From: an uncultured Eubacteriales bacterium
GTDB taxonomy: Bacteria; Bacillota; Clostridia; Christensenellales; Aristaeellaceae
Reading direction: 5' to 3'
Assembly (NCBI GenBank): GCA_902801165.1
Contig: CADCHI010000004.1
Location: 30,308 to 94,307, forward strand
Length of the DNA: 64,000 nucleotides
Shown: positions 1,697 to 63,455 of the stretch, piece after piece
Layout: each line of letters opens with the position of its first letter
Numbering within the stretch: the stretch's first letter is position 1
Made by a program: the position numbers and the translations under genes
Notes under the pieces: generated by a model
What the model was told of the DNA's origin: nothing
The model's database searches: none
The model's input: the letters and a program-made list of their open reading frames with translations, nothing else

Positions 1697-1870
1697 TCGA
1701 ATTAGGAGTGAGGAATTAGGAATTAGAAATTCATGAGGAAATCCTGACGGATTTCTTTGAATCATCATTGCGTACCAGCGAAGAAGCGCTGATCATTTGG
1801 TATTATCGGAACAAATCCCGAAGGGATTTGCGCCGCCATTCTCAATTCTCCATTCTCAATTCTCAATTGG
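1697..1870. repeat. Heptad-arm palindromic element, GAATTGA/GAATTAG class
   Basis: The left arm (1699-1733) is built of GAATTAG-like 7-mers. The right arm (1836-1870) is AATTCTC/CATTCTC 7-mers, its approximate reverse complement. The core holds two small hairpins, AAATCC-tgac-GGATTT (about 1738-1753) and CAAATCCC-GAA-GGGATTTG (about 1812-1830). Its reverse complement is clearly homologous, core included, to the element at 30716-30873. It fills most of the pyrR-uraA gap; I see no gene in it. Confidence 0.85.
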
Positions 1871-1880
1871 ATACAGCCCG

Positions 1881-1936
1881 GCAGCGCGGTAGCGGCATTC
1901 TGACTGCTGCCTGTTGCCTGATGCCTGTTGACTCAA
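1881..1936. repeat. Half-copy of CAACAGG-class heptad element
   Basis: This is the right half of the element seen at 61836 and 22422: a GCAGC...GCGGCATTCTGACTG stretch followed by heptads GCCTGTT/GCCTGAT/GCCTGTT and ending GACTCA. It stops two bases from the pyrR stop codon and lies next to the GAATTGA-class element, so two classes are juxtaposed here. Confidence 0.7.
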
Positions 1937-1938
1937 CA

Positions 1939-2475
1939 CTACCTGTCGCACAGCCACACGCCCATCTCGTCGTCGATCTCCGGCAGGGCCACGCGGACGA
2001 ACTCCGTCACCGCCGTAGGCACGTTCTTTCCGGCGAAGTCGGCGCGAATGGGCAGCTCCCGGTGTCCCCGGTCGACGAGCACCGCCAGCTGGATGCGGCG
2101 GGCCCTGCCCAGGTCCATCAGCGCGTCCATGGCCGCCCGGGCCGTGCGGCCGGTGTACAGCACGTCGTCCACCAGCACCACGGTGCGCCCCTCGATGGGA
2201 AAGGGCACGTCCGTGCGGTTCAGCTTCGGGTCCCGGGACAGGTGGGTCAGGTCGTCGCGGTAGAAGGTGATGTCCACCGACCCCACCAGCAGCCGCGCGC
2301 CCTCCACCCGCTCGATGGCCTCGGCCAGCATGCGGGCGATGGGCTCGCCCCGGCGGCGGATGCCCACCAGGGCCACGTCCTCCACGCCCTTGTTGCGCTC
2401 GATGATCTCATGGGCCATGCGGGTGACGGTCCGGCGCATCTGCGCCTCGTCCATCAGCTGCGTCTTTTTCTCCAA
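1939..2475 (-). CDS. pyrR: Bifunctional pyr attenuation regulator / uracil phosphoribosyltransferase
   Basis: PyrR binds UMP and an RNA hairpin in pyr leader transcripts and promotes termination; many members also make UMP from uracil and PRPP. The protein has the PRPP motif [16 protein letters not shown], and [21 protein letters not shown], split here as [13 protein letters not shown] plus FAGKNVPT, is near identical to Bacillus PyrR. I chose a TTG start at 2475 because GGGGAGG lies 8 bases upstream and it gives the usual length of 178 residues; an ATG at 2454 is the alternative. Just upstream are a PyrR-binding loop and a terminator, so the gene is autoregulated. The downstream partner is uraA. 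Confidence 0.95.
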
Positions 2476-2498
2476 GGAAAGTGCCTCCCCACAGACAT

Positions 2499-2529
2499 AA
2501 AAATGCCCCCGCCGCCAAGGCAGGGGCAT
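2499..2529 (-). terminator. PyrR-controlled attenuator terminator upstream of pyrR
   Basis: On the minus strand ATGCCCC...GGGGCAT forms a stem followed by a TTTTT tract, immediately before the pyrR ribosome site. The loop carries TGCCTTGGC (2514-2522), complementary to GCCAAGGCA (2572-2580) just upstream, which makes the competing antiterminator helix. This is the standard layout of a pyr attenuator. Confidence 0.88.
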
Positions 2530-2579
2530 GAAAGGCGCGCGGTTCGCGCCGCTGTCGCATGCTGTCTCAAGTGCCTTGG

Positions 2580-60773: not shown

Positions 60774-60848
60774 GCGCTCACCACTTCAACTGTATTTGTC
60801 GGGTTCCCCGCCCATCGGCGGCTGGAGCCTTCGGCTTCGCGGTAGGGA

Positions 60849-61796
60849 TTAGCCCCGCTTCCGCGCCGCCATGGCGCACCACTCGCCCTCGTTCAAATCG
60901 TCCAGGATCTCGTAGTTCGCCTCGGCCAGCGCCCTGCGCACGTCCTCCCGGCGCTCCACGGAGATGCCGGAGCAGATGAACAGGCCGTTCTCGGCGATGC
61001 GCTCCCGAACGGGCGCCGCCAGACCGACGATCACGTCCGCGATGATGTTGGCGATCACCACGTCGCCGCACTCGTGCACGACCTCCAGAAGGTCGCCGCA
61101 GCGCACGTCGATCGCGCCCTCATAGCCGTTGATCTTCACGTTTTCCGCCGCCACGCGCACCGCCACGGCGTCCAGGTCGGTGGCCAGCACCGGCTTCGCG
61201 CCCATGTGGGCCGCGGCGATGGCCAGTATGCCCGTGCCGGTGCCGATGTCGATCACCCGGTCGCCGGGCTTTACGTACTTCTCCACCAGCTGCACGCACA
61301 TGCCGGTGGTCTCGTGGGTGCCGGTGCCGAAGGCCATGCCGGGGTCGATCTCGATGATGTGGTCCCCGGGCCGGGTCTCGATCTCGGTCCAGCTGGGCTT
61401 CACCACCATGTGGTTTCCCAGCCGGAAGGGCTTGAAGGCCGCCTTCCAGCTCTCCGTCCAGTCCTCCTCGGCCACGGAATGGGTGCGCGTCTCCAGCTTG
61501 CCCAGGTCCATGCCCAGGTCCATGCCCTTGATCCGCCGCAGCTCGCCCTCGATATAGGCGATGCGGTCGCTCAGGCCGCCGTCCACCTCGAAGTAGCCCG
61601 TCACCTTCACATCGTCGCCGATGCGCTGGGCAATGGCCTCGTCGATGATGTCCCACTGGCCCTCCGGGCGCTGGTTCGCGGCCACGTCGTTCTTGTCCTC
61701 GATCATGGTGCCGGTGCTGCCCGCGTCCATCAGGATCTGGGAGACGAGGTCCGAGCCCTCGGTGGTGGTCAGTACCGTGTATTCCATCCAGTCCAT
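60849..61796 (-). CDS. prmA: Ribosomal protein L11 methyltransferase
   Basis: A 315-residue SAM enzyme that trimethylates L11. It has the family segment DPGMAFGTGTHETT, motif I VIDIGTGTGILAIAAAHMGA and the NIIADV catalytic loop. ATG 61796 (MDWMEYT) is 8 bases from GAGGAG and preferred over 61802, which is only 2 bases away. It lies between dnaJ and rsmE. Confidence 0.96.
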   Translation of the reverse strand: MDWMEYTVLTTTEGSDLVSQILMDAGSTGTMIEDKNDVAANQRPEGQWDIIDEAIAQRIGDDVKVTGYFEVDGGLSDRIAYIEGELRRIKGMDLGMDLGKLETRTHSVAEEDWTESWKAAFKPFRLGNHMVVKPSWTEIETRPGDHIIEIDPGMAFGTGTHETTGMCVQLVEKYVKPGDRVIDIGTGTGILAIAAAHMGAKPVLATDLDAVAVRVAAENVKINGYEGAIDVRCGDLLEVVHECGDVVIANIIADVIVGLAAPVRERIAENGLFICSGISVERREDVRRALAEANYEILDDLNEGEWCAMAARKRG

Positions 61797-61835
61797 GCGC
61801 ATTGCTCCTCGTAAATAAATTGAGAAATGAGGGAG

Positions 61836-62067
61836 TGAGTCAACAGGCAGCAGGCAACAGGCAGTAGTCGGAATGCCGCTTCCGCGCCGTCAAACAATCC
61901 TGTGATAAAGTGCGGCAGCCGCATCCTGACTGTTGACTGTTACCTGAAATTGCCACGGCGGCAGTCGGAATGCCGCTTCCGCGATTTCAACCAATCCTCC
62001 AATTAAGTGCGGCAGCCACATCCTGACTGTTGACTATTGCCTGTTGCCTATTGCCTGTTTCCTGTTT
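61836..62067. repeat. Heptad-arm element, CAACAGG class, with duplicated core
   Basis: The left arm is GAGTCAACAGGCAGCAGG plus CAACAGGCAGTAGTCGG. The core GGAATGCCGCTTCCGCG...AAGTGCGGCAGCC.CATCCTGACTG occurs twice in tandem (about 61868-61935 and 61965-62030). The right arm TGACTATTGCCTGTTGCCTA continues in TTGCCTG/TTTCCTG heptads. It fills the dnaJ-prmA gap, and no gene is present. Confidence 0.85.
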
Positions 62068-62106
62068 CCTGAAATTGAAATTCTCCAGGCGAATTTCAAT
62101 TTCAGG
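62068..62106. terminator. 16-bp perfect hairpin overlapping the dnaJ stop codon
   Basis: CCTGAAATTGAAATTC and GAATTTCAATTTCAGG enclose TCCAGGC. The dnaJ TGA lies inside the stem. There is no U-tract, so protection or processing of mRNA is as likely as termination. Confidence 0.65.
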
Positions 62107-63244
62107 AAAACGCGTCCTTCAGCTTGTCGAAGAAGGACTTCTTCTTCTCGTACTGGCTGTTGCTGGTGGTGCCGTCGAACTGGCGCAGCAGCTCCTTCTG
62201 CTGGTTGGTCAGCTTCTTGGGGATCTCCACCACAGCGGTGACGTACAGGTCGCCCTTGCCGCCGCCCCGCAGATGGGTGACGCCCTGCTCCCGCAGGCGG
62301 AAGATCTGCCCGGGCTGGGTGCCCTCCGGGAAGCGGTACTTCACCGGCTTGGTCAACGTGGGCACGTCCAGTTCAGCGCCTAGCGCCGCCTGAGTGAAGG
62401 TCAGCGGCATTTCGATGTACAGGTCGTCCTCGCGCCGCTTGAACAGCTTGTGGGGCTTCACCGTGATCACGATCAGCAGGTCGCCCGGCTGGCCGCCGCG
62501 CTCGCCCAGGCCGCCCTGGCCGCGAATCGTCAGCACCTGGCCGTTGTCGATGCCCGCGGGCACCTTCACCGTGCGCCGCTTGCTGACGCGCACCTTGCCG
62601 CGCCCGTGGCACTTGGGGCAGGGCTCGGTGATGATCTTGCCCGCGCCGTGGCAGCGGGAGCAGGTGCGCACGTTCTGGATGCGTCCGAAGGGCGTGTTGG
62701 TGACCACGCGCTCCTGGCCGGTGCCGCCGCAGGTGGGACAGGTGTCCACCTTGGACCCGGGCTTCGCGCCGCTGCCGCCACAGGTGGGGCACTCCTCGTC
62801 CCGGACCAGGTTGATCTCCTTCTCGCAGCCCATGGCCGCCTCCTCAAAGGAGATGGTCAGGTCGTAGCGCAGATCGTCCCCGGGCACGGGGCCGTTGGAG
62901 CGCCCGCCGCCGAAGCCGCCGCCGAACACGGAGGAGAAGATGTCCTCAAAGCCGCCGAAGCCGCCGCCGCCAAAGCCGCTGAAATCGCCGAAGCCGCCGC
63001 CGCCGCCGAAGCCCGCCTGGGGGCCGTCGTGGCCGAACTGGTCGTACTGGGCCCGCTTCTCGGGGTTGGAGAGCACCTGGTAGGCCTCGTTGATCTCCTT
63101 GAAGCGCTCCTCAGCGCCCTTGTCGCCGGGGTTCACGTCCGGGTGGTTCTTCTTCGCCAGCGTGCGATAGGCCTTTTTGATCGTCGCCGCGTCCGCGTCC
63201 TTGGCTACGCCCAGAACCTCGTAGTAGTCTCTCTTGTTTGCCAT
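62102..63244 (-). CDS. dnaJ: Chaperone DnaJ (Hsp40)
   Basis: A 380-residue co-chaperone stimulating DnaK ATPase. It has the J domain with HPD ([12 protein letters not shown]), a Gly/Phe-rich linker (about 75-125), and four zinc knuckles ([32 protein letters not shown]), then the C-terminal substrate domains. It follows dnaK across a terminator-like palindrome and a heptad element, an unusually long gap for this pair. Confidence 0.97.
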
Positions 63245-63285
63245 ATGCTTGGATCACCCCTCATTGATTTGGGGAATAATAACGC

Positions 63286-63455
63286 GAATTGAGAATTGGG
63301 AATTGGAAATTGAGAATTCCGGCGAAAACCCATACGGGTTTTTCTGATTTAAGCAAATAGCACCGTCATTTTATCAGCCCAATGCCTTGCAATCAAACAA
63401 ATCCGCAAGGATTTGCACAACCATTCTCAATTGTCAATTCTCAATTCTCAATTGA
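63286..63455. repeat. Heptad-arm palindromic element, GAATTGA class, dnaK-dnaJ junction
   Basis: The left arm (63286-63318) is GAATTGA/GAATTGG heptads; the right arm (63421-63454) is CATTCTC/AATTGTC/AATTCTC heptads. Core hairpins are AAAACCC-ATAC-GGGTTTTT and CAAATCC-GCAA-GGATTTG. Read in reverse, the GGTTGTGCAAATCC...GGATTTGTTTGATT segment matches the copy at 35227. Confidence 0.85.

Follow-up and report, generated by a model that had tools for sequence, protein, structure and literature searches.

This study concerns a set of intergenic palindromes in a 64,000-nucleotide stretch of DNA (hereafter the window, to whose first letter positions are counted) from an uncultured Eubacteriales bacterium of the Aristaeellaceae, namely positions 30308–94307 of contig 4 of its draft genome (G000; 3.55 Mb in 98 contigs). 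The window contains nine complete palindromes and two half elements, with arms made up of arrays of degenerate 7-bp repeats (heptads). As argued below, these palindromes are likely to be non-autonomous members, resembling miniature inverted-repeat transposable elements (MITEs), of a family of small mobile elements whose full form carries a PF05635 gene, coding for the S23 or four-helix-bundle protein. An initial annotation of the same DNA had counted about eight complete palindromes and two halves, and all elements it named were found again. The arms are separated, as it had stated, though by 53–224 nt rather than 80–220, and two of its start positions, 49599 and 34212, belong to AACTTGGAA-type palindromes adjoining heptad elements, the heptads starting at 49619 and 34242. 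The features are listed here together with their state in the sister genome G016, which is 86–98% identical to the window in the main matched stretches.

187–211: half element, short AGGCAAC-type arm, recognized by eye
1699–1868: complete element, core class B, GAATTAG units in the left arm and TGAGAAT units in the right
1900–1933: half element, AGGCAAC-type arm with the pyrimidine strand on the plus strand, seemingly with part of core D
1939–2808: phosphoribosyltransferase (pyrR-like) gene, adjoining the element at 1699–1868
22424–22547: complete element, core class D (54 nt), AGGCAAC arms; class B element there in G016
30717–30872: complete element, core class B in the orientation opposite to that at 1699, GAGAATT arms
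34242–34416: complete element, TGGAGTN arms, upstream of a pyrK-like gene; core outside the assigned classes
35198–35366: complete element, AGGAATT/GAGGAAT arms, between pyrK- and pyrD-like genes; core outside the assigned classes
37019–37309: complete element, AGGGAAA arms, between pyrF- and pyrE-like genes; core outside the assigned classes
49619–49732: complete element, core class D (53 nt), AGGCAAC arms; class B element there in G016
60046–60056: site without an element in the window; AATT heptad element of about 220 bp in G016
61838–62071: complete element, core class D with a 97-bp internal duplication, AGGCAAC arms; absent from G016
63286–63453: complete element, core class B, GAGAATT/GGGAATT arms; also present in G016

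Grouped by arm class, the elements at 1699, 30717, 35198 and 63286 are of the AATT type and those at 22424, 49619 and 61838 of the AGGCAAC type, with TGGAGTN arms at 34242 and AGGGAAA arms at 37019. All sit between open reading frames (ORFs) and outside 23S rRNA, and an Rfam search of the window gave no match. The homology of cores that had been noticed at the outset holds for class B at 1699, 30717 and 63286 and for class D at 22424, 49619 and 61838.

The repeats are not confined to the window, as the AATT heptad pattern has 216 matches in the whole genome against 2 for the reversed control. Half of the genus shares this pattern (14 of 28 genomes), whereas 32 genomes from other genera within the family or order all lack it; the pattern AGGGANN occurs in 26 of the 28 congeners, for which a reversed-pattern control is uninformative because AGGGA is identical when read backwards. 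A sample of 452,667 bases of the own genome (the window plus 20 stretches, about 13% of the genome) gave 37 strong arrays at period 7 and 31 at its multiple 14, against 0–1 at periods 4–6, 8–11, 13 and 16, with 8 at period 12 and 6 at period 15 (perhaps codon-scale repeats), and a local Markov control of this sample gave none at period 7, bearing out the constant period of 7 initially claimed. Likewise, 400 kb of congener G001 yielded 105 strong arrays at period 7 and 92 at period 14, with 1–2 at periods 5, 8, 10, 11 and 13 and 20 at period 6. The longest heptad run in the sampled own genome is a 121-bp near-uniform GGGAATT array (L050 3518–3638, on G000:C6), close to which no partner array was found.

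Polarity with the purine arm first is nearly fixed in G000 and G001. Pooling of both samples (852,667 bases) gave 184 arrays above a lower threshold, and 73 neighboring pairs of these lie at most 330 nt apart, with the purine arm preceding the pyrimidine arm in 60, the reverse order in 1 and parallel arms in 12. The heptad units vary among elements (AGGCAAC, AGGGAAC, AGGGAAA, AGGGAGT, AGGGATT, AGGAATT, GGGAATT, GAGAATT, GAGAATG, GGAGTTT and others), and the two arms of one element tend to match each other. To express this in numbers, each arm was reduced to a 7-phase profile and true pairs were compared with permuted pairs in 5000 permutations, none of which reached the observed value in either of the following comparisons: over all 60 pairs, mean arm similarity is 0.823 for true and 0.655 for permuted pairs, and the corresponding values for the 29 elements of core class A are 0.842 and 0.719. 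Since the matching holds inside class A, homologous cores bear different heptads, with both sides altered jointly; the classes rest on BLAST matches to four reference cores, some of the matches to class A being short, and 16 of the 60 elements remain unassigned. Mixed pairs such as e34 and e47 are exceptions to the agreement. Homologous cores recur at many genomic sites in the two samples.

Comparison with G016 shows that elements are present or absent at given sites and also replace each other. G016 lacks the element at 61838, having 8 nt where the own genome has 297, and it holds an element of roughly 220 nt at window position 60050 that the own genome lacks. The class D elements of the own genome at 22424 and 49619 are swapped for class B elements in G016. 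Together with the homologous cores at many sites, these differences support the dispersed non-autonomous element that the initial annotation had proposed.

The AGGGAAA element of the window lies at the pyrF–pyrE junction, and at this junction in two congeners heptad arms enclose an ORF that matches PF05635 (23S_rRNA_IVP; L117 and L123, the same places as L156 and L160). PF05635 is present in 20 of the 28 congeners with 42 match rows, 38 of which were inspected as loci, 30 first and then 8. Heptad arrays stand on both sides of the gene at 33 of these 38 loci, comprising 27 of the first 30, with the remaining three being L135, where the left side lies past the contig end, L150, with none, and L154, with a broken gene, and 6 of the further 8, with none at L358 and L361. 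The own genome has two PF05635 matches (L142 and L354), both flanked by arrays on both sides and both outside the window. In the window itself, tblastn returned only short fragments (E 0.006–0.008) and no PF05635 gene, so that its palindromes, which belong to the same repeat family as the S23 elements but lack the gene, are at most non-autonomous relatives of the S23 element. The S23 elements of the genus have one ORF between the arms, and by sequence and tree their proteins fall into two subfamilies; other PF05635 members that were tested are named “four helix bundle protein” in NCBIfam. From these loci, the full element is likely to consist of a 7-nt (sometimes 8-nt) repeat array, one PF05635 gene and an inverted array.

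Gene-bearing and gene-free elements are similar at their ends. The sequence AATRGC inside the left arm or GCYATT inside the right arm occurs in 20 of 56 short cores (0.87 in shuffled sequences) and in 12 of 27 S23 elements (0.23 in shuffled sequences), and core class B ends in a AAATCCGNNGGATTT-type hairpin that by eye is like the hairpin closing S23 elements L156 and L160. Because this terminal sequence is common to both, the short cores would be internal-deletion derivatives of S23 elements. The arms of S23 elements also match each other, with a mean similarity of 0.892 against 0.671 for permuted pairs (0 of 5000 permutations), and an S23 element shared by G000 and G016 at one place differs jointly in its two arms, which are of the AATTAGG type in G000 and of the AATTGRG type in G016.

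The association of PF05635 genes with heptad (or octad) arrays extends far outside the genus, to cyanobacteria and other phyla alike. A tblastn search of plasmids with two genus proteins gave 30 and 26 records, mainly from cyanobacteria, and 12 of the 56 were chosen for taxonomic spread. In all 12 loci tandem arrays flank the gene on both sides, with period 7 in 11 and period 8 in one (Gemmatirosa), and on inspection the nearest arrays are inverted in 9. The junction between traM and a hypothetical gene on Nostoc plasmids is variably occupied: two C057 plasmids have no element there, C052 and N. edaphicum have an S23 element with AGGGAAC arms, one ATCC 53789 plasmid has a short-core heptad element without S23 gene, and two more plasmids have other inserts. 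In 5 of the 12 plasmid loci (L164, L167, L169, L170 and L172) the S23 gene lies amid defense-type genes, namely hsdS/hsdR, drmD/pglX, cas6/cas4 (twice) and helicase/N6 methylase. In a phage collection, 2 records match one S23 query and none match the other.

A collection of species representatives was then scanned with the motif S[IV]P[SAT]NIAEG, and the best 80 of at least 590 confirmed stretches were taken, including 8 with a stop or frame break in the match, which were retained in the counts. With at least 100 nt on both sides, 78 of these loci could be evaluated for arrays within 300 nt per side. Period-7 arrays are found on either side at 61 and on both sides at 40 of the 78 loci, and period-8 arrays at 13 and 5, respectively; for the two periods combined the counts are 71 and 45, whereas other periods give 0–4 (periods 5, 6, 9, 10, 11 and 13) or 7 (period 12). 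Control windows displaced by 2 kb have a period-7 array on either side in 15 of 136 cases and on both sides in none of the 136, and one is present in 25 of 156 intergenic runs taken from these loci well away from the gene. At 50 of 78 loci the inverted-repeat score is higher than in any displaced control and also above the 99th percentile of mixed-locus upstream/downstream pairs, the highest mixed-locus score (26) being above the median of true pairs (22). At the 40 loci with period-7 arrays on both sides, median distances to the matched ORF are 28.5 and 18 nt, and 32 start with the G-rich arm, 3 with the C-rich arm and 5 are mixed, which makes polarity a strong tendency and no law. Arrays on at least one side occur in 13 named phyla among the 80 loci, to which the plasmids add Spirochaetota, Chloroflexota and Gemmatimonadota; this range includes one archaeal record, with an array on one side. 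Period-8 arrays (L190, L209, L213, L222, L233, L240, L251 and L171) lie dispersed across the protein tree.

To test specificity, 291 genomes of the class were searched for bAvd (PF22296), which gave 14 rows above the cut-off. Two of these, at a single place, have an array on either side, and there is none at the 7 rows whose locus has a YMDD motif. Avd is described as homologous to the S23 protein and as needed for retrohoming in diversity-generating retroelements, where it goes with a reverse transcriptase and a template repeat (PMC10053308). The Avd model matches S23 proteins only below its cut-off, and the PDB relatives of the S23 protein are 2gsc and 2rld; from the Pfam, NCBIfam and PDB matches and the cited kinship, we infer that S23 proteins adopt a four-helix fold related to that of Avd.

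Parts of this association have precedents. In the 23S intervening sequence (IVS) of several Coxiella burnetii strains, three tandem heptamers precede the S23p ORF, the product of which is said to have “no known function” (PMC4990558). Like the present elements, the Coxiella IVS is a stem-closed insert, with the S23p ORF in the loop, and a mobile origin is suspected for IVSs. Classical IVSs lie inside 23S rRNA and are excised by RNase III (PMC4990558), whereas the present elements are numerous, are located between protein genes and have an array at each side, most of them without the ORF; the window elements thus share the matched inverted heptad arms with the S23/IVS group but neither the enclosed PF05635 ORF nor the 23S rRNA location. 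The initial annotation had compared the arms to the short tandemly repeated repetitive (STRR) sequences of cyanobacteria, and this likeness is real: STRR heptanucleotide repeats form hairpins whose function is “still not known” (PMC2670836), and one of two heptad repeat classes has repeatedly replaced the other in the P6b stem of the Nostoc trnL(UAA) intron (PMC4476775), so that in both, as in the window, degenerate 7-nt repeats pair across a hairpin. Within their available text, these descriptions neither tie the repeats to a protein or gene-bearing mobile element nor place any outside cyanobacteria. Cyanobacterial STRR hairpins probably belong to the same family as the elements described here. 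The TAACTGA repeats of Beggiatoaceae are also intergenic heptamer arrays with a patchy distribution over phyla, but consist of one fixed heptamer in direct repeats mostly before start codons, and none of the terms “S23”, “four helix”, “intervening” and “23S” is used in the available text of that report (PMC4679880). A search of the open-licence literature found no paper beyond the one on Coxiella that joins heptad repeats with PF05635. Paired heptad hairpins in cyanobacteria and S23 ORFs in rRNA IVSs are already known, and what would be new is the general joining of both. Two old puzzles, the heptanucleotide repeats and the four-helix-bundle protein of IVSs, then look like parts of one structure. 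This supplies candidates that can be tested, the repeats as ligand of the protein and the protein as agent behind the repeats; it also suggests a mobile element without a recognized transposase or polymerase of its own, and would change the annotation of many “four helix bundle protein” genes.

In a transcript, the arms would be able to close a long hairpin with the PF05635 gene or the short core in its loop. Folds of the RNA strand have z-scores of −7.5 (35197), −8.6 (22422) and −8.9 (an S23 element of the own genome, in whose predicted fold the arms close over the ORF), and it is from such folding that the RNA hairpin offered as a possibility in the initial annotation draws its support. The factor that it had assumed to maintain the elements now has a candidate in the PF05635 protein encoded between the same arms. 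At 80 S23 loci, with the longest ORFs taken as neighboring genes, which is a rough method, the S23 gene is in sense to both neighbors in 53 and antisense to both in 4, with neighbors in opposite directions in 15 and 8 loci too short. This sense bias was also considered as proof of insertion as RNA, and this was rejected because the bias does not extend to short cores; it is best read as a need for read-through expression, and the orientation data suggest that the S23 gene is expressed in this way.

A number of observations weigh against a mobile family defined by the S23 gene. Congeners G018 and G027 have 436 and 431 AGGGANN matches and no PF05635 match, and 88–97 such matches occur in G002, G019 and G021, likewise without PF05635 match; the range is 0–97 in the six S23-less congeners besides G018 and G027 and 2–1077 in the 20 congeners with PF05635. 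Arrays thus exist without the gene in the assembly, and across the 28 congeners array counts do not clearly follow PF05635; for G018 and G027, this may reflect loss of the gene, gaps in the assembly at repeats, or arrays that are independent of it. Among the 78 cross-phylum loci, 7 are without an array at the threshold used, and in 33 an array is missing from one or both sides; in the Treponema, Pseudanabaena and Gemmatirosa plasmid loci (3 of 12) the arrays are nested and the nearest two are parallel. In a second sample, consisting of the PF05635 matches of six genomes chosen by way of named loci (30 of 33 rows), arrays occur on either side in 24 of 30 and on both sides in only 9 of 30; six of these loci were already part of the first sample, eight derive as near-copies from a single repeated unit with a one-sided array, and L306, L309 and L318 are cut at contig ends. 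A repeat period set by protein clade is not borne out, as a tree of few columns and many open forks requires 9 changes, and shuffled labels require 10.6. An array on either side also accompanies 6 of 16 bAvd rows that fall short of the cut-off. Neither a target-site duplication nor a clean scar is evident at 22422, 49619, 60050 and 61838 in comparison with G016 or at the Nostoc plasmid junction, although the initial annotation had proposed to look for duplications by comparing junctions in related strains; the flanks at the compared sites have diverged, which weakens this comparison. The short-core elements have no sense bias (7 sense, 9 antisense, 25 with opposed neighbors and 3 unscored, the ORF calls around them being unreliable). 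In the elements inspected no reverse transcriptase gene was seen between the arms, and we know of no catalytic site in the S23 protein.

Several of these points fit a reading in which the heptad hairpins are independent, as mRNA-stabilizing or processing hairpins or as slippage products, with the S23 gene a passenger that inserts into them or is tolerated inside. Such independence would account for the hundreds of array matches in genomes without PF05635 match, for the majority of sampled heptad pairs that enclose no PF05635 gene, and for elements that replace or adjoin each other at the same sites. We consider it unlikely, as the flanking arrays lie close to the gene (the medians of 28.5 and 18 nt at 40 loci), S23 elements and short cores have similar ends, and the arms of one S23 element match better than arms of different elements.

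For the family of S23-bearing elements and their gene-free derivatives, the following mechanism is proposed. The S23 protein would bind the heptad hairpin in RNA or single-stranded DNA and would recruit a host reverse transcriptase or polymerase, in cis and in trans, and the arms would be kept alike by the hairpin being copied across itself, slipping one repeat. Handling of the hairpin by the protein, and a role of the protein in movement, are inferred with help from its kinship to Avd and from the heptamers of the Coxiella IVS. A wider and more doubtful proposal, to be taken as tentative, is that heptad-armed S23 elements form a distinct minimal class of mobile elements, spread over at least 16 named phyla and devoid of transposase or reverse transcriptase, in which an Avd-like protein packages hairpin RNA and borrows a host reverse transcriptase, with heptads arising and staying alike through templated stuttering somewhat like that of telomerase and with STRRs, P6b stems and IVSs as products.

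The likeness of the arms could also be the work of DNA mechanisms only, that is, of slippage and template switching across a quasi-palindrome at replication, with S23 a bystander. In favor of this, arms agree in repeat type, yet their variant units can be placed differently on the two sides (e46 against e49); period 8 is found as well, and the orthologous S23 elements of G000 and G016 differ in both arms jointly. Left unexplained are the excess of arrays at PF05635 genes over other intergenic regions or Avd genes and the dispersal of homologous cores, for which reasons we regard this explanation as quite improbable.

Short, dispersed elements with terminal inverted repeats and polymorphism between sister genomes also recall classical MITEs moved by a DDE or RAYT/Y1 transposase. 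In one genome, that of Calothrix PCC 7103 (the genome of L243), near-identical S23 genes (L301, L305, L308, L311 and L314) are co-amplified in a larger repeat that also holds a seemingly ISL3-type transposase (by eye); because this repeated unit exceeds the fetched flank, these copies gave no element ends. A linked transposase of the type associated with repetitive extragenic palindromic (REP) sequences, TnpA-REP or RAYT, for which the initial annotation had recommended a search, is not borne out. Y1 transposase matches occur in 16 of the 28 congeners, and there is no Y1_Tnp match in G001, which with 276 AATT matches has the most of the 28, nor in G003 (81) or G004 (50); a RAYT/Y1 transposase was therefore rejected as the linked enzyme, its presence not tracking the arrays across congeners. 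A fixed terminal inverted repeat shared with a transposase-bearing element was not found either, the arms differing among elements with the same core and Y1 being the only transposase searched. A variable terminal sequence around a common internal core is the reverse of a MITE, and no target-site duplication was seen at the compared sites, with their diverged flanks. Classical MITEs accordingly retain only a very slight chance of being the right description, as opposed to relatives of an S23-bearing element.

The own genome has two Y1 genes, and the one analyzed is flanked by a palindrome of another sequence than the heptad arms. This motif, GGGGACGGTTCCTTATTCCA, occurs as doublets on both sides of the RAYT-like Y1_Tnp gene (G000:C31:71392; L052 1375–1450 and 2219–2300), which indicates that a separate REP/RAYT-like system is present. 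The heptad elements resemble REP sequences in being dispersed intergenic palindromes, but neither track the Y1 transposase nor flank the Y1 gene analyzed, in contrast to the REP-like palindrome, which differs from them in sequence. A perfect GGGGACGGTTCCTTATTCCA pair lies in the window at 50236–50300.

Three further repeats were noted in the window. A 38-bp tandem repeat, CGCGGCAGCAAATGGGGTTAAGCGCCCCGCGCTTAAAG, is present in 2.4 copies at 53548–53638, and its CGCGGCAGC resembles the ends of heptad-element cores. A 25-bp perfect inverted repeat, CGTAGGGACGCCATAATTGGCGTCC, occupies 53316–53387, in a block (53272–53545) that corresponds to 52 nt in G016. Finally, a 22-bp perfect AT-rich palindrome, ATATATAGATTATCGATATATA, at 51388–51437 precedes a small ORF at 51464 and is possibly an operator.

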